Assembly: GCF_013394655.1 (NCBI RefSeq)
Contig: NZ_CP053351.1
Location: forward strand, 2,572,501-2,636,500
Length of the DNA: 64,000 nucleotides
Source: Winogradskyella schleiferi
Lineage (GTDB): Bacteria > Bacteroidota > Bacteroidia > Flavobacteriales > Flavobacteriaceae
Direction of reading: 5' to 3'
Shown here one piece after another: positions 3,218 through 32,722 of this stretch (positions within the stretch are counted from its first letter, which is position 1; the number at the start of each line of letters is the position of its first letter). Below the pieces are notes generated by a model that saw only the letters and a program-made list of their open reading frames with translations, made no database searches and was not told where the DNA came from. A program made the translations under genes and the position numbers.

Positions 3218-6200
3218 ATGACCTTTTTAGACAAAGTACTTAAAGTTTTTGTTGGAGATAAATCCAAACAAGACGTAAGTGCCATTAAGCCCATTGTTGA
3301 AAAAATAAAGACCTTTGAAAAAGCGCTAGAAGCCTTATCACATGATGAACTTAGGGCAAAGACAATCGAATTCAAAACTATAATAGCAGAAGCAAGGCAA
3401 CCGCTAAACACCAAAAAAGAAGAACTTTTAGAAAAAGCTAAAGTCACGGAAGATATTGACGAACGTGAAGATATCTATCTCGAAGTCGATAAAATTGATG
3501 ATGAAATCTATGACGTCACCGAGGGTGTTTTAAACGATATACTTCCTGAGGCCTTTGCCGTTGTAAAAGAAACCGCTAAGCGATTTGTGCACAATACAGA
3601 AATTCCTGTAACGGCAAATGCTTTTGATCGTGAAATTTCTGGAGAAAATGATTATGTAACCTTAGAAGGTGATCAAGCGATTTGGTCGAACTCTTGGGAT
3701 GCAGCCGGAAAACCGATTACTTGGGACATGATTCACTACGATGTGCAGTTAATTGGTGGTGTGGCTATGCACCAAGGAAAAATTGCAGAAATGCAAACTG
3801 GTGAAGGTAAAACTTTGGTCGCAACGCTTCCAGTATATTTAAATGCATTGGCGGAAAAAGGGGTTCACTTGGTAACGGTTAACGATTACTTAGCAAAACG
3901 AGATAGCGCTTGGATGGCGCCTATATTCCAGTTTCATGGTATGAGTATCGATTGTATTGATTACCACACGCCAAATTCTGATGCACGTCGCAAAGCCTAT
4001 AACGCTGACATTACTTACGGAACAAATAACGAATTTGGCTTTGATTATCTACGTGATAACATGGCGCATTCGCCAGACGATTTAGTACAACGTCCACACC
4101 ATTATGCTATTGTTGATGAGGTCGATTCGGTATTGGTTGATGATGCACGTACACCTTTAATTATTTCTGGTCCTGTGCCAAAAGGAGATGAACACGAATT
4201 TGATGCCTTAAAACCAAAAGTTCAGCAAATTGAAGACGTCCAACGTAAATATTTAGTCGGTGTTTTGGCAGAAGCTAAAAAACTGATTGCAGCTGGTGAC
4301 ACTAAAGAAGGTGGTTTCCAGTTATTAAGAGCTTACAGAGGTATTCCTAAAAACAAAGCCTTAATTAAGTATTTAAGTGAGGAAGGCGTTAAGCAATTGC
4401 TTCAAAAAACTGAGAATCATTACATGCAAGACAATAATAGGGAAATGCCTTTAGTAGATGCAGAACTCTATTATGTGATTGATGAAAAAAATAATCAAGT
4501 TGAATTAACCGATAAAGGTGTCGAATTTCTTTCGGGTGAAGATGATCCAGATTTCTTCGTTATGCCAGAAATGGGAACTGAAATCGCTAAGATTGAAAAC
4601 AAAGGCTTATCGTCTGAAGAAGAGGCGAACCTTAAAGAAGATTTATTTAGGGATTTTGGTGTTAAGTCGGAACGTATTCATACACTGAACCAATTATTAA
4701 AAGCTTACGCTCTTTTCGAAAAAGATAACCAGTATGTGGTTATGGAGAATAAAGTGATGATTGTCGATGAACAAACGGGTCGTATTATGGATGGTCGTCG
4801 ATATTCTGATGGTTTACATCAAGCGATTGAGGCTAAAGAAAATGTAAAGATTGAAGCAGCAACACAAACATTCGCCACAGTAACACTTCAAAATTATTTC
4901 AGAATGTATCGTAAATTGTCTGGTATGACAGGTACTGCGGTTACTGAAGCTGGTGAACTTTGGGAAATCTATAAATTGGATGTGGTTGAAATACCTACCA
5001 ACAAACCAATCGCTAGAGATGATAGAGACGATTTAGTGTATAAAACAAAGCGTGAAAAATACAATGCGGTTATCGATGAAGTGACAGAGTTGTCACGAGC
5101 AGGAAGACCAGTGCTTATTGGTACAACCAACGTTGAGATTTCAGAGCTTTTAGGTAAAATGTTGAGTATTCGTAAAATAGACCATAACGTCTTAAATGCG
5201 AAACAACATAAAAAAGAAGCTGAAATAGTAGCACAAGCTGGTAATGCTGGCCAAGTGACTATTGCCACAAACATGGCTGGTCGTGGTACAGATATAAAGC
5301 TGAGTGACGAAGTAAAAGCCGCAGGTGGTTTGGCCATTGTTGGTACAGAGCGTCACGATTCGCGTCGTGTCGATAGACAGTTGCGTGGTAGAGCTGGTCG
5401 TCAAGGAGATCCAGGAAGTTCACAGTTCTATGTGTCTTTGGAAGATAACCTAATGCGTTTGTTTGGTTCTGAACGTATCGCTAAGATGATGGACAGAATG
5501 GGATTGAAGGAAGGTGAAGTCATCCAACACGGCATGATTTCCAAGTCTATTGAACGTGCGCAGAAAAAGGTAGAGGAAAACAACTTTGGTGTTCGTAAGC
5601 GTTTATTGGAATATGATGATGTCATGAATGCCCAGCGTGAAGTAGTTTACAAGCGTCGTCGTAATGCCTTACATGGTGAACGTTTGAGAGTTGATTTAGC
5701 CAACATGATTTACGATACTTCTGAAGGTATTGCACTAAACAACAAAAACGCTAACGATTATAAAAACTTTGAGTTCGAATTGATCCGTTACTTCTCAATG
5801 GAATCACCTCTTTCTGAAGCTGAATTTGGAAAAAAGAGTGCTCAGGAGATTGCTGGCATCATTTATAAAGCCGCCTTTAAGCACTACAGGGAAAAAATGC
5901 AACGCGCAGCGGATTTAGCATTTCCTGTAATTGAAAATGTATATAACACACAGCGCGATAAGTTTAAACGTATCGTCGTACCATTTACAGATGGCGTAAA
6001 AAATCTTCAGGTGGTGACAGACTTGGAAAAAGCCTATGAAACCAAAGGGACGCAGCTGATCAATGATTTTGAAAAGAACATTACATTAGCGATTGTGGAT
6101 GATGCTTGGAAAACGCATTTACGTAAAATGGATGAATTAAAACAATCCGTTCAGCTGGCTGTTCACGAACAGAAAGATCCATTATTAATTTATAAATTCG

Positions 6201-6577
6201 AATCTTTTGAGCTGTTTAAGTTGATGATTGATCAAGTTAATAAAGATGTGATCTCATTCTTATTTAAAGGTGAAATTCCACAAGAAACAGCAAATACCAT
6301 TCAAGAAGCCAGAGCTCGTAAGCAAGAAAAGTTGGAAACGCAGAAAGACGAGATTCCAAATATGGACGAGCGTGCTGCCCAAAACAGACAAGCTGGTGAA
6401 GGTGCCTCGCGTCAACAACAGCAAGTGGTTGAGACCATTGTTAGGGAACAACCAAAAATTGGACGTAACGATCGTGTGACTATTAAACATGTCATGAGCG
6501 GTGAAGCTAAAGAAGTAAAATACAAGCAAGCGATTCCGTTGATAGACAAAGGGGAATGGGTTTTGGTGAATGACTAA
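3218..6577 (+). CDS. secA: Preprotein translocase ATPase SecA
   Basis: SecA is the motor ATPase that pushes unfolded preproteins through SecYEG. At 1119 residues it is much longer than the roughly 900-residue E. coli protein, because of an extra block between the DEAD motif region and the segment beginning LFRDFGVKSERIHTLNQLL. That extension is known in Bacteroidetes SecA. Walker A (MQTGEGKTLVATLP), the DEVDSVLVDDARTPLIISGP block, MVDEQTGR-like and MAGRGTDIKL motifs, and RQLRGRAGRQGDPG are all present. The C-terminus ends in GEWVLVND and lacks the Cys-rich zinc-binding tail. A strong terminator follows at 6617-6650, so it is probably transcribed alone. Confidence 0.98.
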   Translation: MTFLDKVLKVFVGDKSKQDVSAIKPIVEKIKTFEKALEALSHDELRAKTIEFKTIIAEARQPLNTKKEELLEKAKVTEDIDEREDIYLEVDKIDDEIYDVTEGVLNDILPEAFAVVKETAKRFVHNTEIPVTANAFDREISGENDYVTLEGDQAIWSNSWDAAGKPITWDMIHYDVQLIGGVAMHQGKIAEMQTGEGKTLVATLPVYLNALAEKGVHLVTVNDYLAKRDSAWMAPIFQFHGMSIDCIDYHTPNSDARRKAYNADITYGTNNEFGFDYLRDNMAHSPDDLVQRPHHYAIVDEVDSVLVDDARTPLIISGPVPKGDEHEFDALKPKVQQIEDVQRKYLVGVLAEAKKLIAAGDTKEGGFQLLRAYRGIPKNKALIKYLSEEGVKQLLQKTENHYMQDNNREMPLVDAELYYVIDEKNNQVELTDKGVEFLSGEDDPDFFVMPEMGTEIAKIENKGLSSEEEANLKEDLFRDFGVKSERIHTLNQLLKAYALFEKDNQYVVMENKVMIVDEQTGRIMDGRRYSDGLHQAIEAKENVKIEAATQTFATVTLQNYFRMYRKLSGMTGTAVTEAGELWEIYKLDVVEIPTNKPIARDDRDDLVYKTKREKYNAVIDEVTELSRAGRPVLIGTTNVEISELLGKMLSIRKIDHNVLNAKQHKKEAEIVAQAGNAGQVTIATNMAGRGTDIKLSDEVKAAGGLAIVGTERHDSRRVDRQLRGRAGRQGDPGSSQFYVSLEDNLMRLFGSERIAKMMDRMGLKEGEVIQHGMISKSIERAQKKVEENNFGVRKRLLEYDDVMNAQREVVYKRRRNALHGERLRVDLANMIYDTSEGIALNNKNANDYKNFEFELIRYFSMESPLSEAEFGKKSAQEIAGIIYKAAFKHYREKMQRAADLAFPVIENVYNTQRDKFKRIVVPFTDGVKNLQVVTDLEKAYETKGTQLINDFEKNITLAIVDDAWKTHLRKMDELKQSVQLAVHEQKDPLLIYKFESFELFKLMIDQVNKDVISFLFKGEIPQETANTIQEARARKQEKLETQKDEIPNMDERAAQNRQAGEGASRQQQQVVETIVREQPKIGRNDRVTIKHVMSGEAKEVKYKQAIPLIDKGEWVLVND

Positions 6578-6581
6578 CCCA

Positions 6582-6650
6582 ATTCCTGCGAAGGCAGGAA
6601 TCCTGTGATAGAACCTAAAAATCCTGATGCAACCCATCAGGATTTTTTTT
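6582..6650 (+). terminator. secA terminator with an adjacent repeat hairpin
   Basis: ATTCCTGC-GAAG-GCAGGAAT (6582-6601) forms a perfect small hairpin, and an almost identical one recurs just upstream of hisS at about 58254-58270. It is followed by a stronger terminator, AAATCCTGATG/CATCAGGATTT with a T8 tract ending at 6650. Confidence 0.8.
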
Positions 6651-6704
6651 ATGATGACATTTTAAGCTCACTGCGATTATAAGATAGAACCAAAACTTAT
6701 AATC

Positions 6705-7313
6705 ATGAAAAATCAAGCATTAAGCATTACATTCTTCCTTTTTACATTAGTTACAATCACCGCACAAGACATCAATTTTGGAGCCAAAGCCGGAGTTAAC
6801 ATTGCCAGTATTAAATTTGAAGACAAGGACTATAGCACTTCACCTCGTATTGGTGCCCATGTTGGCGGATTTGTCAATTACGAAATCAATGAAAAACTAA
6901 GCGGACAATTGGAAGTCTTTTACAGTATGGGTGGAAATAAATGGGATTATGATAATGGTGACACTACAGGAAAGGTAAAAACCAGTATGATTAGCATCCC
7001 TTTATTGGCACAATATGAAGTTATAGAGCACCTATCTGCAGAAGCCGGAATACAATACAATTTTTTACTCTCCGTTAAGCAAAAAATTGATGATGTGGAC
7101 GATAGTTTTGAGGACCTAAGTAAATACTATAAAACGGGTTCTTTTGGTTTTGCTTTAGGTGCTTTATACCAATTAGACATGTTGGTTCCAGGTTTGGCTG
7201 CGGGTTTAAGGTACACTAGGGATCTTACCAAACTGAACAATAGCGACGTCGATGCAGGCAAGATAAAACAAGGTATCCTTCAAATTAACTTTGTATATAC
7301 GTTGTCAAATTAA
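6705..7313 (+). CDS. Outer-membrane beta-barrel protein, PorT-like family
   Basis: A 202-residue exported protein. Residues 1-20 form a signal peptide with a hydrophobic core ending in TAQ. The mature part has alternating strands typical of small eight-stranded Bacteroidetes barrels: FGAKAGVNIASIKF near the start, GAHVGGFVNYEI, LSGQLEVFYSMGG, SAEAGIQYNFLL, GALYQL, AAGLRYTRDLTKL, and a final strand ILQINFVYTL ending near an aromatic residue. Members of this outer-membrane beta-barrel group often have no assigned role. It stands alone between the secA terminator and a repeat block. The fold call is good; the function is unknown. Confidence 0.8.
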   Translation: MKNQALSITFFLFTLVTITAQDINFGAKAGVNIASIKFEDKDYSTSPRIGAHVGGFVNYEINEKLSGQLEVFYSMGGNKWDYDNGDTTGKVKTSMISIPLLAQYEVIEHLSAEAGIQYNFLLSVKQKIDDVDDSFEDLSKYYKTGSFGFALGALYQLDMLVPGLAAGLRYTRDLTKLNNSDVDAGKIKQGILQINFVYTLSN

Positions 7314-17163: not shown

Positions 17164-18045
17164 TTAGCCATTTGAAGGCTCTCCTGTTTTATGGCAATAC
17201 TTTTCAGGGAATTCATAGTTTTCAAACTTCACCCAAGACTTGTATGCTTTATAACAAAATGGGCGCTCAGGGTTAAAAGCAATCTCTTCTCCTGTCCTTA
17301 TACAATACCCTTTTTCTTTATATTTAGATACAATATTTTCTTTCTTAGTTTCTTTCTTTTTCGGAACCTCAGGTTTTTGGTTTTGTTCTAATCTTTTTTC
17401 CGATCTAGTTTTTAATTCAGGAATAACCTCTTTATCATCTAAACTTACAACATCTATATCTTGATAAACAACCCGTTCATAACCATCTTTATTAGGATCA
17501 AAGGATTCAAATATATCTAATAAGACTTCTGACCTTAAATAATTTCTACTCAAGCCTAATAACGCTTTTTTAAATACAGGACGTTTTATATAAACGCAGT
17601 GTGCACTATTTTCTAGCAAATCAAAATGATGATTTTCATGTTCTTGATACACTTTCTCCGTTAAAGTAATTTTAGAAAATGCTACTCCATATTCTACATT
17701 ATTCTCAGCTGAATAATCGTATAAATTCATGGATGTAATAATCCCCTCAGATTCATTAACATAACTTTTAGCATGAAGTCTTGGCTCGTAAATAATAGAG
17801 ACGTTCGGGAAAGCTTTAAAATAATCTAGGTCTTCACTTCTCATGCTGCGGTAAAAATTGGCTTCATTTTTACCAAATATGACTTGTAGATAAATATTGG
17901 GATTATTTTTTATTAAATCAAATCGTTCTTTATAATGTGCGTCTAGTTTTATATACGGTGAAGTAATATAAATAAACTTTTTAGCATTGGTAATAATGTC
18001 ATCAATGGCGTTATTAAGATTATCGCCAGTTAAAAATGTACTCAT
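17164..18045 (-). CDS. PLD-like nuclease/phosphatase-fold protein with C-terminal Cys-rich segment
   Basis: This 293-residue protein has one HKD motif: H91 and K93 in LHAKSYVNESEG, followed by S105 and N107 in TSMNLYD and an acidic residue in the ENNVEYG segment. This matches single-motif phospholipase D-superfamily proteins that act as dimers, several of them nucleases. The middle is charged and KKE-rich. The C-terminus has Cys residues at CIRTGEE, FCYKAYKSW and YCHKTGE, like a zinc ribbon whose first and last knuckles have lost a Cys. It lies 175 bases downstream of hsdM on the same strand and is probably the last gene of the restriction island. Confidence 0.8.
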   Translation of the reverse strand: MSTFLTGDNLNNAIDDIITNAKKFIYITSPYIKLDAHYKERFDLIKNNPNIYLQVIFGKNEANFYRSMRSEDLDYFKAFPNVSIIYEPRLHAKSYVNESEGIITSMNLYDYSAENNVEYGVAFSKITLTEKVYQEHENHHFDLLENSAHCVYIKRPVFKKALLGLSRNYLRSEVLLDIFESFDPNKDGYERVVYQDIDVVSLDDKEVIPELKTRSEKRLEQNQKPEVPKKKETKKENIVSKYKEKGYCIRTGEEIAFNPERPFCYKAYKSWVKFENYEFPEKYCHKTGEPSNG

Positions 18046-21039: not shown

Positions 21040-21280
21040 TTATTTGTTTAATTTCTCTTTATTAATCCTCTTTAACATAACACTAGCAGGCTCATAATCC
21101 TTATCTGCTTTGCATTTAGTAATTTCTTCTTTACTTAATAATGTACCCTCAAATGCTTTTTTAAGGATGCTTTGGCGTAAGGCTTGGGCTTTTTCTAAAC
21201 TTTCTTTTATGCTTTCTTCTACTTTATAACATACTGATAAATGACTTTATATTTCTTGAACGATTTGGTGTTGTTCGTTT
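21040..21280 (-). pseudogene. Partial second copy of the hsdS 3' end
   Basis: The minus strand encodes KAQALRQSILKKAFEGTLL, then CKADKDYEPASV, and a lysine-rich end followed by TAA at 21040-21042. It matches the last 75 or so residues of the intact hsdS, with about 80% nucleotide identity by eye. A TAA at 21247-21249 replaces the Glu that follows IVQEI, so the fragment cannot be a functional HsdS. It lies directly before the DUF3883 gene (ATG 21034-21036), the position hsdS itself would hold if the NUC1 gene were absent. Confidence 0.85.
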
Positions 21281-21340
21281 AATAATTTAATTTCTAATTA
21301 AATATTATTATATTTTGAAAACAGATGTCCAAATTAGATA

Positions 21341-22417
21341 TTACAGACTTTTAATAAATTCTAAATCATTAAAATCTTTCTCTGGTTGAAAACTATACTC
21401 CATTAACTTAATACTTTTTCTAATATCTTCATCCACGTCTTTAAAATAGAATTTTTCTTGTTTCCTATTTATGTCAACATGATTTAGTCCAAAATCTAAT
21501 CCTGTTTTTTCCTCAATTAAACTAATTTTAACCTGATACCTTCTTACATTTCTTGTATTCCAGTATTTTGTTATATCTGCAGGAGTTAAACTTGACGGTT
21601 TTCTCCCTTCCTTAAGCAATTCAGCATGCTCTAGCAAACTTATTTTATACTTATTAAAAACAACTTTTTGACTCATCAAAAAACCTACAGCTTCCAGTTT
21701 ATTTTGTTCATTAATATATGCTAACACCTTCCAATATGTCACAGGTATATTTAAAGTATCTGTTTCAAAAATCCCATTAAATACCGGGCCAGCAAATATT
21801 GAGATTTTTTCGGTTTTAAATACTGCCTTTACCATTGAATAATTCTCTAGATCTAACCATTTTCCTGTATTAAAACCAGCTACTTGTGGACAACAATTGG
21901 TGTAATAAAAAGTATCACCAATAGCTGTTTTTTGAATTATTTCTGTTTCTCCCCAAGCAGGATCGTAATATCTAACTATATGACCTCTGTGAAAACCAGA
22001 CTTATAATAGTCCTCATCATCGAATTGAAAATTATCGTTAGCTATTTTAATTCTATCATCTTGATCCCAAATATCACCCGACCTAGAATCATGATCCATA
22101 GCTAAATAATTTTTGACTCCATAATTGTTAACAGCCGTTATATATGGTAATTTCAATTTTTTATTATGCATTATACTAAAATGCAAATAATCAAGATAGT
22201 TTTTGCCATTTTCTGAAGGTCTTTGATTTATGGCAATATCTCCAAAATTTAATTTAATTAGAGTTGGAAGTTTAACTACATTGTCACCATCTCCTAAAAA
22301 CTTGGAATCATATCCTTTCCTATTGGATAAATTATCATCTTTTATAGCCTCTAGAATTACTTCTTCAACTAGATAGTCATTTTGTAGTTTTAATTTAAAA
22401 GTATTCATATCCATCAT
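21341..22417 (-). CDS. DNA/RNA non-specific endonuclease-like protein (NUC1 superfamily)
   Basis: This 358-residue protein contains the NUC1-type ββα-metal core. The DRGH motif appears as HRGHI (143-147), with the general-base His at 146, and YYTNCCPQVAGFNTGKWLDLE (172-191) carries the Asn and Glu of the metal site. The family hydrolyses both DNA and RNA without sequence specificity; an Asp-to-His change at the first position is atypical. There is no signal peptide, so a cytoplasmic role such as defence is likely. Its start overlaps the hsdS stop (ATGA, 22414-22417), and it is bracketed by intact hsdS and an hsdS 3' remnant. Confidence 0.85.
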   Translation of the reverse strand: MMDMNTFKLKLQNDYLVEEVILEAIKDDNLSNRKGYDSKFLGDGDNVVKLPTLIKLNFGDIAINQRPSENGKNYLDYLHFSIMHNKKLKLPYITAVNNYGVKNYLAMDHDSRSGDIWDQDDRIKIANDNFQFDDEDYYKSGFHRGHIVRYYDPAWGETEIIQKTAIGDTFYYTNCCPQVAGFNTGKWLDLENYSMVKAVFKTEKISIFAGPVFNGIFETDTLNIPVTYWKVLAYINEQNKLEAVGFLMSQKVVFNKYKISLLEHAELLKEGRKPSSLTPADITKYWNTRNVRRYQVKISLIEEKTGLDFGLNHVDINRKQEKFYFKDVDEDIRKSIKLMEYSFQPEKDFNDLEFIKSL

Positions 22418-23694
22418 TTTTTATTTTTCTTCTTTTTAATCCTCTCCAACAAAACACTAGCAGGCTCATAATCCTTATCTGCTTTACATTTAGCAATTTC
22501 TGCCTCACCTAACAATGTACCCTCAAATGCTTTTTTAAGAATACTTTGGCGTAAAGCTTGTGCTTTATCTAAACTGCCTGCAATGTCTTTTTCTACTGTA
22601 TCACAAACCGATAAACGACTTTCAATTTCTTGAACAATTTTTTTGTGTTCATCTTTATCTTCATAAATTGGAATCTCCATTTTTCCAATTACACTCGTGT
22701 TAAGGTTTGGTTGCGCTGCACCTTGATTTAAATTTCTCAAATAAACTGTTTTGCTACACCAATAATAGTAGTGATAACGCAAATCATCATCTAAATATAG
22801 AAAAGCTGCAATACCATCATTGAAAGTTGTATTTATAGTTGTAATAGCTGGAATGCCAAGCGTTGCTCCACTATTTGTTAGCAAAAGTGTATTAGCATCT
22901 ACAAATCTTGTTTTCTTTAATCCAGCTTCTTTTATTGAATGTTCTGCATTATCAACATAGATTCCAATATTTCTACTAATATCTCTTACTTTCATAAAAG
23001 GAATATCTCCATTATAAAACCTCTCATCACCTGCAGGTCTTGGTGAGCCACCTCTAACTACTTCACACAGAGTATCGATTGTAACAATTTTATATTCTTT
23101 GTCTGAATATGCTCCCTCAAAAGCCTTTTTTAAAACCGCTTGTCTGTAAATAACCAATTGGCCCTGTGCTTTTTTTAGGTCTGCAATGCCGCTATCTAAA
23201 CTGCTAAAGAGTTCTTCTATTTTATTGACTATTGCTTTCTGTTCTACTAATGGTGCAATAGAAATATTTAACTTTTTTAATATTGTTTGGCTGATATTTG
23301 GCTGTGCTCCACCAATACCTTGTTGAATTAAAAAGTTTTTTTGAGAAAACAAAAAGTTATATAAATATTCAGAATTAAAAACATCACTTTTATAAATTCC
23401 ACAAATTGCCTGATTTGTAGCTGCATCAACTCCTAGAGTCGCCATTTTTCCTATTGTTGCTCCATACAGAGCGAAAAGCAATGTACCTTTAGGAAATATT
23501 TTTGCACTTGACTTTTTGATTGCTTCTTCTGAAATATGTTCTTCAGAATCATAGATTATACCTTTATCTAATTCACCAGATTTTATCCAAGGTATATTAC
23601 CTTTATAAAAGTCTTTGTTTTGCCTACTGGGTGTTCCTCCTGAAGTAGTAAAGCAAACTTCGCCCAATGTACATTCAATCCAATCTTCTCTCAT
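22414..23694 (-). CDS. hsdS: Type I restriction-modification specificity subunit HsdS
   Basis: HsdS recognises the DNA site and joins HsdM and HsdR into the complex. The 426-residue protein has two target-recognition domains: TRD1 from about residue 1 (DWIECTLGEVC) and TRD2 from about residue 200 (TIDTLCEVVRGGSPRPAGD). Each is followed by a conserved helix region (IDLKKAQGQLV-like and AGSLDKAQALRQSILKKAFEG). The start overlaps the stop of the PD-(D/E)XK gene upstream by 4 bases. The 3' 230 bases are present again, diverged, at 21040-21280. Confidence 0.96.
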   Translation of the reverse strand: MREDWIECTLGEVCFTTSGGTPSRQNKDFYKGNIPWIKSGELDKGIIYDSEEHISEEAIKKSSAKIFPKGTLLFALYGATIGKMATLGVDAATNQAICGIYKSDVFNSEYLYNFLFSQKNFLIQQGIGGAQPNISQTILKKLNISIAPLVEQKAIVNKIEELFSSLDSGIADLKKAQGQLVIYRQAVLKKAFEGAYSDKEYKIVTIDTLCEVVRGGSPRPAGDERFYNGDIPFMKVRDISRNIGIYVDNAEHSIKEAGLKKTRFVDANTLLLTNSGATLGIPAITTINTTFNDGIAAFLYLDDDLRYHYYYWCSKTVYLRNLNQGAAQPNLNTSVIGKMEIPIYEDKDEHKKIVQEIESRLSVCDTVEKDIAGSLDKAQALRQSILKKAFEGTLLGEAEIAKCKADKDYEPASVLLERIKKKKNKK

Positions 23695-25331
23695 TCTTCG
23701 CTTTTCATTTTTTGTTTTCTAAAAAAAGGATGCTTAATTTCTTCACCATCATGTTTAATGGACAGTAAATTATATTTATAATTTCCATCTAAATAATCTG
23801 GAATTTGGCTTAATGTTATGGCTTTATAATCACCATTAAACATATAAAAAGTAGGTGTATTAATAAAAAATACTGTCTCCACTTCATATCCTTTAACATC
23901 AATACTCTCATCTTGATATATGATTTGAAAATGGTCATTGACAACAGTTATATTATTCAATACCCAATTATGTTTCTTAAGCATTTTTGGCTCATATTTA
24001 GTTTTAAAATTGGTATCATCTGTCCTGTAGCCAACCGCTTCATAGCGTGCTTTATTATATTTACAGTCTACAACTAACAGCTTTTTGAGCTTTGTGTTTA
24101 TAATTAAAAAATCGATTTCACCGCAGATTGCATTATCAATATTCACATTGATTTTGGATTTTTGCTTAAATGACTTAACATTTCTTATAAATCGTGTTTT
24201 CTTTTCTATCAAAATCTTTTCAACTTCATCTTCCAACAGCTTGTCATGCTCATTTCCTTTTAGTTGCATAAATACTTTCATACAATCATTTTGCAACCAT
24301 TCTTTTGGTAGGGTATTCCACTTTAAAGCATTCGTAGCTAAAACCATAACGCTTTCCGGATATTTTTCTTCTCCGACTAAAGCTCTTTCTACACCATCTA
24401 TTTCATAAACTAAAATTGGTCGGTACATAAATCTATCCATAGAATATGGCTTTAAAATTAAATCTTCTAAAGACATTTTATTCTCTCTAGAAATAGTTAA
24501 ACCATCATAGAATAGCTTAGCATCATCTTCAGTTATTCCAAATTGCATCGCAAGGTTTTTTGGCAAAATATAAGGCTCAATTGTTTGCAATGTGGAATCT
24601 TTAGAATTATGATGTTTTTTAATTTCGTAGATAATGGCACCAGCCCAGTCGTAGTCAATTTTAAAGCACTCATTAATTTTCTGCTTTAATTCATGAACAA
24701 TTTCTAGTTCAAATGCTCCTCTTTCATATTCTTCTCCAATTGCAGGAAACAATTTGTGGTATGCTGTTCCATAATGATGTTGAAAATCTATCGATATATA
24801 ATCATTTTCATCAAATTGAATAAAATTACACTCTTCAATCATTTTTTGATAAGCAATTTGGTCTGCGAAATGATAAAGCCATGTACCAGCATATAATAAG
24901 TGTTGAATTTTTTCATCAAATCTATTTAATTCATTAGAATCTTTTGGAAATTCTCCCCATTTCAAATCTATATCACATCCTTGCTCTAAAACAGCCTTTA
25001 GGATTCGTCTAGACCTAGCAAATTCATTTTCATCAATTGGATGTAGACTAGCACCTTGATTATATTGTAAATATATCTTTAATGATTCTTCATGCAACCA
25101 AAAGACGTACATGTAAAAAGTAAAACTGTTTTCAGAAAACACTATTTCTTTAAACTTTACTATAAAGTATTGAAAACAAAAAAGCAAAATTTCTTCTACT
25201 TCAACATTATCAGTAAAGACTTTCTTCCCAAATTTATTAATTACTTTTTCAGACATTTCTGACCAATAGACATGTCTTAAATCGTATTCGTAGCTAATAA
25301 AAGCGTGTCCTAAAATTTGTAATCTTGCCAT
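23691..25331 (-). CDS. PD-(D/E)XK nuclease-like protein embedded between hsdR and hsdS
   Basis: This 546-residue protein of otherwise unknown family carries a clear PD-(D/E)XK core in its C-terminal part: an upstream Glu helix (LLEDEVEKILIEK), GEIDFLI with D407, and LLVVDCKYNKARY with D422 and K424. The N-terminal 380 residues are helix-rich (FCFQYFIVKFKE, VFWLHEESLKIYLQY) and unlike any family I know. DUF2357- or LlaJI/McrC-type restriction proteins have a similar layout, so a restriction-like role is plausible. Its ATG overlaps the TAA of the hsdR-tail mini-gene (TAATG) and its stop overlaps hsdS (ATGA): both ends are translationally coupled. Confidence 0.75.
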   Translation of the reverse strand: MARLQILGHAFISYEYDLRHVYWSEMSEKVINKFGKKVFTDNVEVEEILLFCFQYFIVKFKEIVFSENSFTFYMYVFWLHEESLKIYLQYNQGASLHPIDENEFARSRRILKAVLEQGCDIDLKWGEFPKDSNELNRFDEKIQHLLYAGTWLYHFADQIAYQKMIEECNFIQFDENDYISIDFQHHYGTAYHKLFPAIGEEYERGAFELEIVHELKQKINECFKIDYDWAGAIIYEIKKHHNSKDSTLQTIEPYILPKNLAMQFGITEDDAKLFYDGLTISRENKMSLEDLILKPYSMDRFMYRPILVYEIDGVERALVGEEKYPESVMVLATNALKWNTLPKEWLQNDCMKVFMQLKGNEHDKLLEDEVEKILIEKKTRFIRNVKSFKQKSKINVNIDNAICGEIDFLIINTKLKKLLVVDCKYNKARYEAVGYRTDDTNFKTKYEPKMLKKHNWVLNNITVVNDHFQIIYQDESIDVKGYEVETVFFINTPTFYMFNGDYKAITLSQIPDYLDGNYKYNLLSIKHDGEEIKHPFFRKQKMKSEE

Positions 25332-25492
25332 TACGCCGCCATCACTTCATTAAGTTCATTGATAATATCATTAATTTGATTACCAAATAATTGATACATT
25401 TTTCCTTTTCCTCCTTTGGCATCAAAAGGTGTATATTCTAAATCGTCTATTTCTATATGGTAACTGCTCACTACGTGGTCTTTTAAAATCAT
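25331..25492 (-). pseudogene. Partial second copy of the hsdR 3' end, still an open 53-codon frame
   Basis: The minus-strand frame starts at ATG 25490-25492, which overlaps the stop of the DUF6161-like gene, and ends with TAA at 25331-25333, which overlaps the next gene's ATG. It encodes MILKDHVVSSYHIEIDDLEY to INDIINELNEVMAA, which is nearly the last 53 residues of HsdR. Nucleotide identity to the intact hsdR end is about 89% by eye, and most changes are synonymous. It has retained its frame, unlike the hsdS remnant. It may be expressed through coupling, but a peptide this small without the rest of HsdR is probably non-functional. Confidence 0.85.
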
Positions 25493-26757
25493 TTATTACC
25501 TCCCATTAATTTTTCAATCATACTTCCGCCAGGCATAGTTGGCGATGCATCGTCTTTTAGCAAACCAGAATCTGCACGGCTAAATAATGATTGCATTATT
25601 AAATGTTGCTCGGTTGGGTCTATGTTTTTTTCTTTTTTAAGAGCTAAAAACACGTAGGCTAATTGCTCACGTTCTTCCGCATCTCTCACCAAGTGGTAAG
25701 AGCTAAAGGTTAGTTTAGAAAATATCCGAATGGCAAATGCTAAAAATGATACAAAGGTTATAAAAACAATGGACCAACGTATTGCACTTGCAGAGGTTGC
25801 AAACAAGTCTTTTATTGTACCGTCTGATATAAAGTATAGCACAGCACTTAAAGACAAAATAGCAATTACTGAGCAAGTTATTAACGCTATTAACCATTTT
25901 CGTCCTTCAGCTTTTAACTTAACTGCTCTATCGTTCCAATATTTAGCTGGTGCTTCTAGTTTTAGTTTTTCTTTATAGATGACTTCTAAATCTTTAAAGG
26001 CTTTATCAGAGTCAGATAGAAAATCTGAAAACTTATTTTGGCTATCAGTTTTCCATTTTTCATATTCAGTATTCTTTTTTCGAATTAATCGGGAAATTGC
26101 TTTTTCTTTTTCAATATATTCATTTTCTTTTTCGGCAATATGGTCACTAACATTTTTATCATTTTGCTCAAGATTTTTGACATATTCTGACCGTATTCTA
26201 CTTAAAGTTTGGCGCTCATTATTTCGTCTTTTTACTAAATCCGAATCTTGAGTAAAAAACTCATACGCACGTTGCCAACCAATGAAATAGTTTTTATCTG
26301 AACGGCTATAATCAAAGTTTTGGTTTGTAAAGAAATCAAAAGCACCAATAGATGCACCTTTGAATTCACTATCTAATTTAATCAGGAAATCTGTTGTTTC
26401 AGACTCTTTATTGAAATATCGTTCTGCACTGTTGCCTGTATTAGTAAGTTCTTTTTTTAAGGTACTCCATTCACCTTCTTTGTGCGACCTTTGATTAATA
26501 ACATTTACAGTTACAAAAGTTTCAATCTTAGTCTTGCAGTGACTGAAATATCTTTTACTCGGCTTTAAGGTTTCTGGTAAAGGCTCATTATTTTCAAAAA
26601 AATCTAATTGATTTTTAAAAAATTGAAATATGATATCGATACCAACTAAATCAATTTCGAAATTGGCAAATTTAAAATCAAGATGCACCTCTAACGAATT
26701 ATACCAAGCTTTATGCTCTGATTGCCTTATGGCTTTTCTTATTTCTGTTACGTTCAT
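25489..26757 (-). CDS. DUF6161-like membrane-anchored coiled-coil protein
   Basis: The 422-residue protein has a long coiled coil (about residues 175-265; KNLEQNDKNVSDHIAEKENEY and similar), two hydrophobic segments (about 290-312 and 328-348) and a C-terminal domain with FSSYHLVRDAEEREQLAYVF and QHLIMQSLFSRADSG. This end matches my memory of DUF6161, a poorly studied family; I could not check it. The topology suggests an inner-membrane protein with both ends in the cytoplasm. It starts 1 base after the hsdR stop and lies between hsdR and a second copy of the hsdR end. A defence-linked effector or sensor role is inference. Confidence 0.7.
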   Translation of the reverse strand: MNVTEIRKAIRQSEHKAWYNSLEVHLDFKFANFEIDLVGIDIIFQFFKNQLDFFENNEPLPETLKPSKRYFSHCKTKIETFVTVNVINQRSHKEGEWSTLKKELTNTGNSAERYFNKESETTDFLIKLDSEFKGASIGAFDFFTNQNFDYSRSDKNYFIGWQRAYEFFTQDSDLVKRRNNERQTLSRIRSEYVKNLEQNDKNVSDHIAEKENEYIEKEKAISRLIRKKNTEYEKWKTDSQNKFSDFLSDSDKAFKDLEVIYKEKLKLEAPAKYWNDRAVKLKAEGRKWLIALITCSVIAILSLSAVLYFISDGTIKDLFATSASAIRWSIVFITFVSFLAFAIRIFSKLTFSSYHLVRDAEEREQLAYVFLALKKEKNIDPTEQHLIMQSLFSRADSGLLKDDASPTMPGGSMIEKLMGGNK

Positions 26758-26758
26758 G

Positions 26759-29566
26759 TTAGGCCGCTAATACTTCATTGAGTTCGTTAATAATATCATT
26801 CATTTGATTACCAAATAATTGGTACATTTTTCCTTTTCCACCTTTGGCATCAAAAGGGGTGTACTCTAAATCATCTATTTCTATATGGTAACTACTAACT
26901 ACATGGTCTTTTATCATTCGTAGCCAGTCTAACTGTTCTTTTGTAAAACGGTTGTGTTGTCCTGCGTTTTGCTTAAAAATCCAGGTTTTAAAATTGTTTT
27001 CAATGGTTTTGTCGTAGGCTTTTAATTCGCTGTCTATGCCACAAGCTCTTCTAATTAAAGAAACCAAAGCAGTTAATTCGTCTTTTGGTTGTTTGCTTTT
27101 TACTTCTTCTAAAGTTGAATAAGCATCCCAAACATAATCAGGTGCTAACAATGGTTTTTCTAATTGTAGTTTTTCCATCACATCTTTTATCATTTTAAAC
27201 GTAATGTCTCTACGATTATACGGTTGATTATAAAAAATACTCAAAGCTTTGATTTCGTCTTTGTTTGCTTCTAAATATTCGGTAAAATCTTTTACAATTT
27301 CTGTTGCTTTATCTACAGAAGTAATTTCCCATTCGCTTTTTGTAACGGTATCTATATTTACACTATCAATAATTTGTTCGTGTTGTTTACGTACATTGTC
27401 TAGATAATCGTTTAATTCTCCGTTAAACGTTTTACTAGCTTCTAAAATCAATTTTTCTTGTGCATTCTTTTTTGCATCTTCAATTAAAGCTGGTGTTTGG
27501 TCTTGAACAGGAATTTTGTCAATTTCAATTTGTACTTTCGTTTCAATTTCGTCTTGGTCAAAAGCAGTAATTAATTCTTTGGTAATTTGTTTTAAGTTTT
27601 TACCATTAGAAAACTCCAATAATTTGTCTTTTTCCTTTTCTGTAATTTGTTTCTCTAAACGAATTAATCGGTTTGCTAAAGACAAAAACAAATCTTCGTC
27701 TGCAACTCCCATTGTTACTGCTCCTAATAAATCTTTCATTGGAACAGATGGTTTACGTTCTAAAGGTCTGCTGTCCGTTTTTTTAGATTTTGTTGCACCC
27801 ACAGCATCTACAATTACGAAATGCGTTTTTGTTTTAGCTGTTTTAGTTACTAATTGCAAAGAATCACTATTTATAGTTCGTGTTCCACGACCTTTCATTT
27901 GTTCAAAATAGTTGATGCTTTTTACATCTCGCATAAACAATAAAACTTCTAAAGGTTTTACGTCTGTTCCTGTTGCAATCATATCAACTGTAACTGCAAT
28001 TCGAGGATAATAGGAATTTCTAAAACGGTTTAAAATAGATTTTGGGTCTTCCTCAATTTTGTAAGTTACTTTTTTGCAAAAGTCGTTTCCTTCGTCAAAT
28101 TCTTCTCGAATGATTTTTATAATATCGTCTGCGTGACTATCGGTTTTTGCAAACACTAATGTTTTTGGCACTTCATATTCTCCATTTTCGTCAATACGAT
28201 TTGGGTAGATAGTCGTTTTTAAAGCTCTTTTGTATTCACGAATGATATTTCTTATTTGACTTGGATTGACAACTTTTTTATCTAAATCGTTCCGTTTGTA
28301 GTCTGTATCTTCATCTTCTTGTTGCCAACGTTTTTTACGTGTTAGTTTATCTCGTCTGTCCACAAACCAACCTGCTTTTATAGTTTCTCCATTTTGAGAA
28401 ATTTCTGTTTCAATGGTATAAACATCATAAGGTACATTTACACCATCTGTTACAGATTCTTCATACGTATATTGGCTCACTACGTTTTCATTAAAAAAAC
28501 CAAAGGTTCTTTTGTCTGGTGTTGCAGTTAAACCAATTAAAAACGCATCAAAATAATCCAATACCTGTTTCCATAAATTATAAATAGAACGGTGCGCTTC
28601 GTCAATGACTATAAAATCAAATTGTTCAATGGGTACTTTTGGGGTGTACTCAACAGGAACAGCTTTGTTTTTAGCCATTTTGTTCTGTAACCACGAGTTT
28701 TCATTTGGGTTATCCAGTTCGGCACTTTCGTCTAAGTCTTCTCCTTTTAAAATAGAATACAGACGTTGTATGGTTGAAATACAAACTTGACTATCTGAAG
28801 CGATATAACTGGAAGATAAACGCTGCACATTGTACAATTCTGTGAATTTTCGGTTATCGTCATTAGGCTGAAAGGTCATAAATTCCTGTTCTGCCTGTTC
28901 ACCCAAGTTTTTGGTATCCACTAAAAACAGAATACGTTTTGCATCTGCGTGTTTTAGTAAACGATACACAAAAGTTGCTGCTGTAAACGTTTTTCCCGCT
29001 CCAGTCGCCATTTGAATTAAGGCTTTTGGTCTGTTCTTTTTAAAAGAATGTTCCAAGTTATTAATGGCTACAATTTGAGCCGGACGCAAACCTGTATCAT
29101 CTAAAGGAGGCATTGATAATAAGCGGTCTCTTAGACTCTTCCCTTTTTTTAACCACTGCGCAATGGTACTTGGTTTATGAAAACTAAAAACATTTCTACC
29201 TCTCGGTTTTGGATCTCGATAATCTGTAAAACGTGTAATAGTTCCTGTGCTTTCGTACACGAAAGGCAAGGGGTCATTGTTCAAGTACTTTAGTTTTGCT
29301 GAAGCATATCCTTTAGATTGTTCCTCAACAACTGTAAGTCTGTGTCCTTCGTCTTCCCGTTTTGCTTCTATAATCCCGACGGGTTTTCGGTCTGCAAACA
29401 GCACATAATCGGCTGGCCCAACATCAGTTTGGTATTCACGCACTGCAACTCCCTTTCCAACAGATAAGTCAACTTTCTTTTTAGACTGAACCAACCATCC
29501 AGCCTCTCGAAGCATAGTATCGATTTTATCACGAGCTAATTGTTCTGGGTTTTGGTTGATTGACAT
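26759..29566 (-). CDS. hsdR: Type I restriction-modification endonuclease/translocase subunit HsdR
   Basis: HsdR cuts and translocates DNA when the site is unmodified. The 935-residue EcoEI-like protein has an N-terminal PD-(D/E)XK nuclease part (D53 in GPADYVLF, E67-A-K69 in GIIEAKR), the helicase Walker A MATGAGKTF (186-194), DEAH box (VIDEAHRSI), GLTATPD, and motif VI region (MKGRGTRT). The C-terminus (EYTPFDAKGGKGKMYQLFG to NEVLAA) is the part duplicated at 25331-25492. It is the first gene of the island in transcription order, 74 bases from the gene upstream on the same strand. Confidence 0.97.
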   Translation of the reverse strand: MSINQNPEQLARDKIDTMLREAGWLVQSKKKVDLSVGKGVAVREYQTDVGPADYVLFADRKPVGIIEAKREDEGHRLTVVEEQSKGYASAKLKYLNNDPLPFVYESTGTITRFTDYRDPKPRGRNVFSFHKPSTIAQWLKKGKSLRDRLLSMPPLDDTGLRPAQIVAINNLEHSFKKNRPKALIQMATGAGKTFTAATFVYRLLKHADAKRILFLVDTKNLGEQAEQEFMTFQPNDDNRKFTELYNVQRLSSSYIASDSQVCISTIQRLYSILKGEDLDESAELDNPNENSWLQNKMAKNKAVPVEYTPKVPIEQFDFIVIDEAHRSIYNLWKQVLDYFDAFLIGLTATPDKRTFGFFNENVVSQYTYEESVTDGVNVPYDVYTIETEISQNGETIKAGWFVDRRDKLTRKKRWQQEDEDTDYKRNDLDKKVVNPSQIRNIIREYKRALKTTIYPNRIDENGEYEVPKTLVFAKTDSHADDIIKIIREEFDEGNDFCKKVTYKIEEDPKSILNRFRNSYYPRIAVTVDMIATGTDVKPLEVLLFMRDVKSINYFEQMKGRGTRTINSDSLQLVTKTAKTKTHFVIVDAVGATKSKKTDSRPLERKPSVPMKDLLGAVTMGVADEDLFLSLANRLIRLEKQITEKEKDKLLEFSNGKNLKQITKELITAFDQDEIETKVQIEIDKIPVQDQTPALIEDAKKNAQEKLILEASKTFNGELNDYLDNVRKQHEQIIDSVNIDTVTKSEWEITSVDKATEIVKDFTEYLEANKDEIKALSIFYNQPYNRRDITFKMIKDVMEKLQLEKPLLAPDYVWDAYSTLEEVKSKQPKDELTALVSLIRRACGIDSELKAYDKTIENNFKTWIFKQNAGQHNRFTKEQLDWLRMIKDHVVSSYHIEIDDLEYTPFDAKGGKGKMYQLFGNQMNDIINELNEVLAA

Positions 29567-32301: not shown

Positions 32302-32583
32302 AATTCAGTTGCTTGTTAATTAGTTTAAATCAATAGCTACACATACCCTGTTACGGGTATTTACAACTATCGTATATCAACAACGAATTATTTAGTTCAG
32401 CACCTTAAGGGTTAGGCACTTAGGAATCGAGAATAAGTTATACTATTTATAATGAGATCTATAAAAAAATCAGTTGAAATGTTAAAATTAACTATAAAGT
32501 GTAGTTTTAAAATCAAAAACACACCACCAACCAAACAAACAACCCCTTAAATTTCAACACCATAATCCCAATTTCACCAAATA

Positions 32584-32661
<78 letters not shown>

Positions 32662-32678
32662 TAAGAAACCAAAAAAGA

Positions 32679-32722
32679 AACACCCCTAAAGTCCCCTCAA
32701 GGGGACATCCCTAACAAATCAA
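32679..32722. repeat. Short palindromic repeat (family 3), CCCCT...GGGGAC type
   Basis: AACACCCCTAAAGTCCCCTCAAGGGGACATCC forms GTCCCCT-CA-AGGGGAC. The same motif, in more or less altered form, begins the tandem units at 33391, 33717 and 34087, each time upstream of a family 1 repeat start. Confidence 0.65.

Follow-up and report, generated by a model that had tools for sequence, protein, structure and literature searches.

Duplicated hsdR and hsdS gene ends beside accessory genes in a type I restriction operon of Winogradskyella schleiferi suggest displacement of resident genes by incoming segments

Introduction

Displacement that leaves old gene ends behind a new module is already known from type VI secretion system (T6SS) and Rhs loci. 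As outlined in parts of PMC5361080, an incoming T6SS effector module of Vibrio cholerae is anchored upstream and joined non-homologously downstream, and the old gene end or immunity gene is left behind; the authors suggest a mechanism resembling homology-facilitated illegitimate recombination, which elsewhere is described as having homology at one end and an illegitimate join at the other (excerpts of PMC3240628). Rhs C-terminal displacement, with strings of old 3' ends behind the new one, is cited in the same passages of PMC5361080. Type I restriction loci are in turn reported to hold extra genes: rlo and mlo intervening genes in Campylobacter (Miller 2005, cited in a passage of PMC5183652) and tgvAB, embedded in the type I operon of V. 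cholerae VPI-2 (sections of PMC11411939). Here we describe a type I restriction operon of Winogradskyella schleiferi in which added genes ('cargo') are followed by second copies of the 3' ends of hsdR and hsdS; such an operon is a new setting for displacement of this kind.

The window is the whole stretch analysed, 64,000 nt of W. schleiferi assembly GCF_013394655.1 (NZ_CP053351.1, positions 2,572,501-2,636,500), and coordinates below are window positions unless another locus is named. Related loci carry L-numbers, among them L007 (Tenacibaculum adriaticum), L008 (Aquimarina muelleri) and L069 (Salegentibacter); the window itself is labelled WIN. By Pfam assignment, hsdR, hsdM and hsdS form one unit, and the minus-strand order is hsdR, DUF6161 gene, hsdR-tail remnant, X2, hsdS, Endonuclease_NS gene, hsdS-tail remnant, NOV_C gene, hsdM (Table 1). 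Extra genes of the rlo/mlo type thus lie in both the hsdR-hsdS and the hsdS-hsdM slots.

Judged from sequence comparison, the hsdR remnant is probably the 3' end of a formerly resident hsdR that was displaced by a foreign hsdR-cargo segment, and the hsdS remnant most likely belonged to a former hsdS. A donor segment with its own hsdR and DUF6161 gene would have recombined in through homology in hsdR, and its right end would have been attached, with no homology involved, inside the tail of the resident gene (where exactly in the window is presumed), thereby pushing the old tail together with X2 downstream. An equivalent step with hsdS and the nuclease gene would yield the hsdS remnant. The old tail may have survived because the next gene's start region lies in it, so that joins removing it would harm the operon; we infer selection for coupling as the cause of retention, and likewise the order of events. 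The observations that carry this reading are the recurrence of tail copies, the existence of two parental layouts, the allele-like differences in the window, three remnants that match foreign alleles, and joins of hsdS heads to hsdR tails.

The footprint resembles T6SS displacement in its conserved upstream anchor, non-homologous downstream join and older end behind the new module. For the T6SS, the leftovers described are immunity genes and the 3' end of an effector gene, whereas here they are ends of genes for type I enzyme subunits; moreover, the gene upstream remains intact here, and the remnant can include the sequence context in which the next gene starts. As in the Rhs loci described, old 3' ends trail the new one. 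Rhs displacement swaps the end of the protein itself, whereas in the present operons the protein is unchanged and genes are added behind it. The asymmetry of the two ends is also that reported for homology-facilitated illegitimate recombination, but is read here from footprints in natural operons and not from a transformation or conjugation experiment. As with rlo/mlo and tgvAB, accessory genes, some of them for defence, lie between hsdR, hsdS and hsdM; unlike the present case, neither tail duplications nor remnants at the edges of the cargo are mentioned in the passages on those genes in PMC5183652 and PMC11411939. Searches of the open-licence literature list no title or abstract that describes hsd tail remnants at cargo boundaries, and a term search in a review of type I enzymes (PMC3874165) gives no match.

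Tail copies in the window

The original prediction placed a 53-codon copy of the hsdR 3' end (about 89% identical) behind hsdR and a DUF6161-like gene, and a copy of the hsdS 3' end of about 240 bases (about 80% identical) behind hsdS and a NUC1-type nuclease gene. Both are found by repeat search, which pairs 25331-25485 with 26759-26913 (155 nt, 89% identity) and 21042-21276 with 22416-22650 (235 nt, 82% identity). Aligning the pairs of 3' ends, the check proposed with the prediction, excludes chance: at E <= 0.001 the HsdR protein matches its own genome in two places only, namely hsdR itself and, at E 2.8e-26, the remnant, and such copies recur in 15 other loci. The genome is a single contig of 4.56 Mb, and nothing was found in favour of chance similarity or an assembly artefact, which together retain a negligible probability.

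Operon coupling was predicted to have been left intact, and for the hsdR remnant this stands: its start codon and the DUF6161 stop share bases (ATGA), as do its own stop and the X2 start codon (TAATG). It fails for the hsdS remnant, which is decayed and not translationally coupled; the start of the nuclease gene overlaps the hsdS stop, the remnant starts about 50-65 nt past the nuclease stop (near 21293, from blastn against other hsdS tails), and its own stop lies 3 nt ahead of the NOV_C ATG.

Over 150 nt, the hsdR pair has 17 differences, of which 14 are synonymous and three non-synonymous. The non-synonymous share (0.18) compares with a mean of 0.23 in 122 intact pairs of similar identity, and the differences thus appear as the pattern of two working alleles. 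The few amino-acid changes, together with the open frame, the ATG start and the overlap with both neighbours, could also be taken as signs of a functional small protein, a C-terminal piece of HsdR that is kept because it competes with HsdR for the methylase complex. We consider this very unlikely: elsewhere the remnants can be as short as 27 nt, lie out of frame or show decay, and young age plus coupling would explain the open frame.

Recurrence in related loci

A copy of the locus's own hsdR tail, ending in a stop and lying downstream of hsdR, is found in 16 of the 112 loci scanned (WIN, L013, L034, L051, L063, L070, L078, L079, L155, L159, L166, L167, L170, L174, L207 and L241), with scores of 38-68. 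The next-best real tail scores 27, and 2240 scans with shuffled tails peak at 33 (none reaches 35). The pairs L159/L170, L078/L079 and L174/L207 look related, so there are at most 13 independent events. Remnant lengths range from 27 to 152 nt, and their starting edges differ.

The pooled scan covers loci of broadly the same HsdR type, window included. They come from 80 loci of one scan of genome contigs and from a further 94 stretches downstream of hsdR (L152-L245), hand-picked among the matches listed in a PF08463 search of 395 genomes of the phylum (136 matching) with a few hits of an order-wide search. Left out were loci in which hsdR is not aligned to its last residue (L036, L038, L040, L041, L064), has an unclear end (L152) or is followed by <200 nt (L065); stretches that are too short (L206, L208); another HsdR group (L186-L205); L244-L245; and L209-L239 with L243, mostly another HsdR group. 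Among the excluded, L213 and L214 look nearer the type under study, and L237 duplicates L180. L240 and L242, whose contigs hold the hsdR end only, and L241, whose hsdR seems internally deleted, were kept with caution. In the other HsdR groups, none of the 20 loci L186-L205 has a tail copy, and no tail in L209-L239 and L243 scores >=30. An order-wide search with the hsdR C-terminus matches 42 of 395 genomes at E 0.1, seven of them (the window's own included) with close full-length relatives; it finds a tail copy in the window's genome only, at a cut that short tails would miss.

Cargo, defined as a gap >150 nt between core genes, is present between hsdR and hsdS in 57 of the 98 loci with hsdS placed, and 13 of these 57 carry a remnant. 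In a count of 113 loci, 41 have no cargo there and hsdS is unplaceable in 15, three of which carry a remnant. The hsdS-hsdM gap exceeds 150 nt in 63 of 89 loci; among these 63, a copy of the hsdS tail ahead of hsdM is seen in two (WIN and L167). A third, weak hsdS-tail match lies inside a seemingly frame-broken hsdS in L029. A suffix scan for hsdS tails, run on loci other than L167, finds the window alone (score 153), with a reversed control reaching 50 in L044. One copy of the hsdM head, upstream of the intact hsdM in L153 (about 6725-6778, oriented), we count in favour of displacement.

Between hsdR and the tail copy, L174 (634-1476, oriented) and L207 (655-1539, oriented) hold a DUF559 gene, matched by Pfam in L174, together with arrays of CCCCCTTTTTCAAAGGGGGG-like repeats.

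Parental layouts and joins

The window shares homologous anchors with two loci, L007 (84.8% over 2799 nt of hsdR) and L008 (82.1% over 4099 nt of hsdR and DUF6161). The 248 nt after the hsdR remnant align at offset 0 to the sequence after hsdR in L007 (83%), where X2, with 85% amino acid identity to that of the window, directly follows hsdR. The sequence after the intact hsdR of the window aligns at offset 0 to L008 (80%, about 62 nt), and the layout hsdR-DUF6161-hsdS is found in L008 and L069. The single-cargo forms that the original prediction proposed to look for thus both exist (hsdR-X2 and hsdR-DUF6161), and the window combines them, the end of DUF6161 abutting the hsdR tail. Sliding identity along hsdR and hsdM gives no clear break point.

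A similar correspondence is seen elsewhere. The flank after the remnant in L159 and L170 matches, at offset 0, the sequence after a full-length hsdR in L175 and L163 (78-80%), as well as the sequence after the hsdR end of L242 (94.8% and 95.2%). The flank in L240 matches the sequence after hsdR of L170 (95%). Because the L242 contig begins inside hsdR, that gene may not be whole, and the same holds for L240.

On the right-hand side, donor cargo or the head of a donor hsdS appears to have been joined illegitimately to the recipient hsdR tail, at a point that varies; for the window we infer the same. In L013 and L051 the remnant opens with the first part of an hsdS, which runs directly into the hsdR tail, the hsdS heads having blastn support (29 nt at 100% and 23 nt at 91%, respectively). 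L063 has such a fusion by eye, with an internal stop and without blastn support. Fusions of this non-homologous kind are expected when an incoming hsdR-cargo-hsdS segment is linked, from within its hsdS, to the recipient hsdR tail. In L079 the hsdR tail contains the end of a DUF1016 cargo gene, and the relative of this gene in L078 ends likewise; the join in L051 shares, by eye, about 10 nt with its own hsdR tail. The original prediction had homologous recombination with a donor operon through the gene's tail. Recombination with a donor best explains the hsdR remnants, but the right join looks illegitimate, not homologous.

The start of the next gene overlaps the remnant stop in the window, L034, L159, L166 and L170 (ATG) and in L174 and L207 (GTG). 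In L063, L070 and L155 the next listed frame begins beyond the remnant.

If the remnants are displaced ends, they form a readable record of gene entry into restriction operons, with the direction visible (the older allele lies downstream) and sometimes both parental layouts. The entry of embedded defence genes into these operons becomes directly testable, and a second tail of the upstream core gene would be a simple marker for newly loaded cargo of unknown function.

One step or two

As a single step, the displacement would be homology-facilitated illegitimate recombination; the alternative is a tandem copy followed by deletion, and the window data do not separate them. The two-step variant, which is compatible with displacement, has a second hsdR-cargo unit inserted upstream, giving tandem hsdR genes, after which the redundant resident hsdR is lost except for its tail, because the deletion ends at the start region of the following gene. 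We hold it to be a serious possibility, at somewhat under even chances. L159 (about 1311-1546) and L170 (about 2757-2996, oriented) keep both head and tail of a second hsdR; in L246/L241 two further tail pieces come after an hsdR that seems to be deleted internally, L251 carries part of hsdR ahead of the full-length gene, and all remnants are short though hsdR has 935 codons. Yet no second full hsdR stands beside the first in 80 loci and the window, where many contigs are short (loci added later were mostly read only downstream of hsdR), and the tails in L013, L051, L063 and L078/L079 are joined to cargo or to the head of hsdS and keep nothing of an hsdR head.

The reduced second hsdR of L159 and L170 is flanked by a ParE-like toxin gene, matched by Pfam in L159, on one side and by the next cargo gene on the other.

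Evidence that weighs against displacement

Several results count against displacement by a foreign segment, and the first concern tail identity. The original prediction suggested testing whether the remnants fit alleles of other strains better than the intact genes; this is so for three remnants in related loci, which speaks for displacement, and clearly so for neither remnant of the window. L170 matches L242 at 27/27 positions and its own hsdR at 20/27; L034 matches L005 and L001 at 63/69 (own 54/69), and L155 matches L171 at 70/84 (own 60/84). These three are the only ones among the 16 clearly nearer a foreign tail (7-10 nt). In L079 a foreign tail is nearer by 4 nt, and in the remaining 12, among them the window, no foreign tail is better by more than 3 nt, where choosing the best of about 112 tails itself favours foreign ones. 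The hsdR remnant of the window matches its own hsdR at 133/150 and L008 at 135/150, and tail identity was set aside as a parent test for the window as not decisive. The L078 remnant is 1 nt nearer its own hsdR, and that of L051 much nearer (111/120 vs 97/120), which fits local duplication or a very close donor. In L034, 12 of 15 differences to the own tail are non-synonymous; other remnants carry more non-synonymous changes than that of the window, as do more distant intact pairs. Finally, no remnant is detected in 44 of the 57 loci that have cargo between hsdR and hsdS, though very short ones would escape. With this count, and with neither a fixed boundary nor a shared recombinase seen across the remnant loci, the proposal of a dedicated system for gain and loss of accessory genes is not sustained.

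Local duplication is the explanation to which some of these points lead. Here the insertion of cargo, for example by a Y1 transposase or through repair of staggered breaks, would itself have copied the last part of its target gene. The hsdR-hsdS slot of L167 (573-2293, oriented) contains a Y1_Tnp gene and several hsdR-tail copies, and in its hsdS-hsdM slot (5730-6915, oriented) the hsdS-tail copy lies behind a gene that by eye resembles a Y1 transposase; in L051 a weak Y1_Tnp match, below the cut-off, accompanies a tail copy that is closer to its own hsdR than to any other. The cargo of L155, which we take to be Y1-transposase-like, gives no Pfam match. Among the 12 remnant loci (of 16) with cargo scanned, though not every protein in them (WIN, L034, L051, L063, L070, L079, L155, L159, L166, L167, L174 and L241), Y1_Tnp matches occur in L051 and L167 only, and no integrase or transposase is common to the bracketed cargo. 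The remnants differ in length and edges, three of them clearly fit foreign hsdR ends, so that duplication cannot hold for all, and the hsdS heads are left unexplained. Overall, local duplication is an unlikely source of the remnants. Site-specific integration with target-site duplication was rejected, given the differing lengths (27-152 nt) and starts.

Some tail copies in L167 contain short repeat-like insertions.

For the hsdS remnant, further points weigh the same way. No close donor or recipient was found for it. Other hsdS tails match it no better than its own does (L004 84.4%, own 83.8%). The nuclease occurs in one of 296 genomes, its own, and a search for parental forms among plasmids gives 40 records, all <60% identical. 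NOV_C proteins occur in nine of 299 genomes, own included, the best other at 35%; the layout hsdS-NOV_C-hsdM is also found in L043, the nearest such layout, whose NOV_C protein is only 29% alike. The hsdS-tail copy in L167, about 95% identical at the protein level, may be plain local duplication. The end of a former hsdS, left by the same kind of displacement, nevertheless remains the likely origin. Of the two additions of cargo for which one route was predicted, the hsdR case is best explained by recombination with a donor operon; for the hsdS remnant, decayed, uncoupled and with no close parental form, the same route is no more than likely.

Cargo families

By family, the DUF6161 protein and the NOV_C protein (PDC-S36/PD-T4-1) resemble defence proteins in PADLOC, the C-terminal half of the former resembling AbiZ (E 1.5e-25); these assignments are predictions from sequence. 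The nuclease of the window has no PADLOC match. Among proteins of related loci, PADLOC matches are given by DUF1016 (PDC-S02) and by a DUF2326 protein (PDC-M68B), and none by the DUF433 proteins of L013 and L063 or the X2 relative in L010. One could imagine the type I operons of Bacteroidota as standing acceptors for defence cargo, with coupled gene ends that carry the start of the next gene letting foreign subunit-cargo blocks stack, old tails marking the layers, and some tails, as in the window, being translated and retained as short HsdR fragments that moderate restriction once a further block has come in; we would give this idea little credence.

X2 belongs to a family of proteins of about 550 aa with no Pfam family above the cut-off. 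Further members are in L007 (12799-14439) and L010 (12798-14456), where they directly follow hsdR; in the window X2 follows the hsdR remnant.

Coordinates and neighbouring features

Table 1. Components of the restriction operon, in operon order (window positions).
Feature	Position	Strand	Basis
hsdR, intact, 935 aa	26759..29566	-	Pfam ResIII, EcoEI_R_C, weak HSDR_N
Cargo 1, DUF6161 protein, 422 aa	25489..26757	-	PF19658, E 1.5e-59
hsdR-tail remnant, open 53-codon frame	25331..25492	-	Repeat search, frame reading
X2, 546 aa	23691..25331	-	PDDEXK_11 match, under curated cut-off
hsdS, intact, 426 aa, two Methylase_S stretches	22414..23694	-	PF01420
Cargo 2, DNA/RNA non-specific endonuclease, 358 aa	21341..22417	-	PF01223, E 1.9e-34
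hsdS-tail remnant, decayed, in-frame stop	21042..21293	-	Repeat search; extent from blastn against other hsdS tails
NOV_C-domain protein, 432 aa	19738..21036	-	PF13020; PADLOC PDC-S36 / PD-T4-1
hsdM, 506 aa	18221..19741	-	N6_Mtase, HsdM_N

The same genome has a second, different type I hsdM/hsdS pair at about 2124767-2126966 of its contig. Downstream of hsdM in the window lies a PLD-like gene (17164-18045) with weak similarity to DrmC, to which a short stretch downstream of hsdM in L043 gives a 33% match. A frame at 32513-32683 consists mostly of phenylalanine codons and reflects near-homopolymeric sequence.

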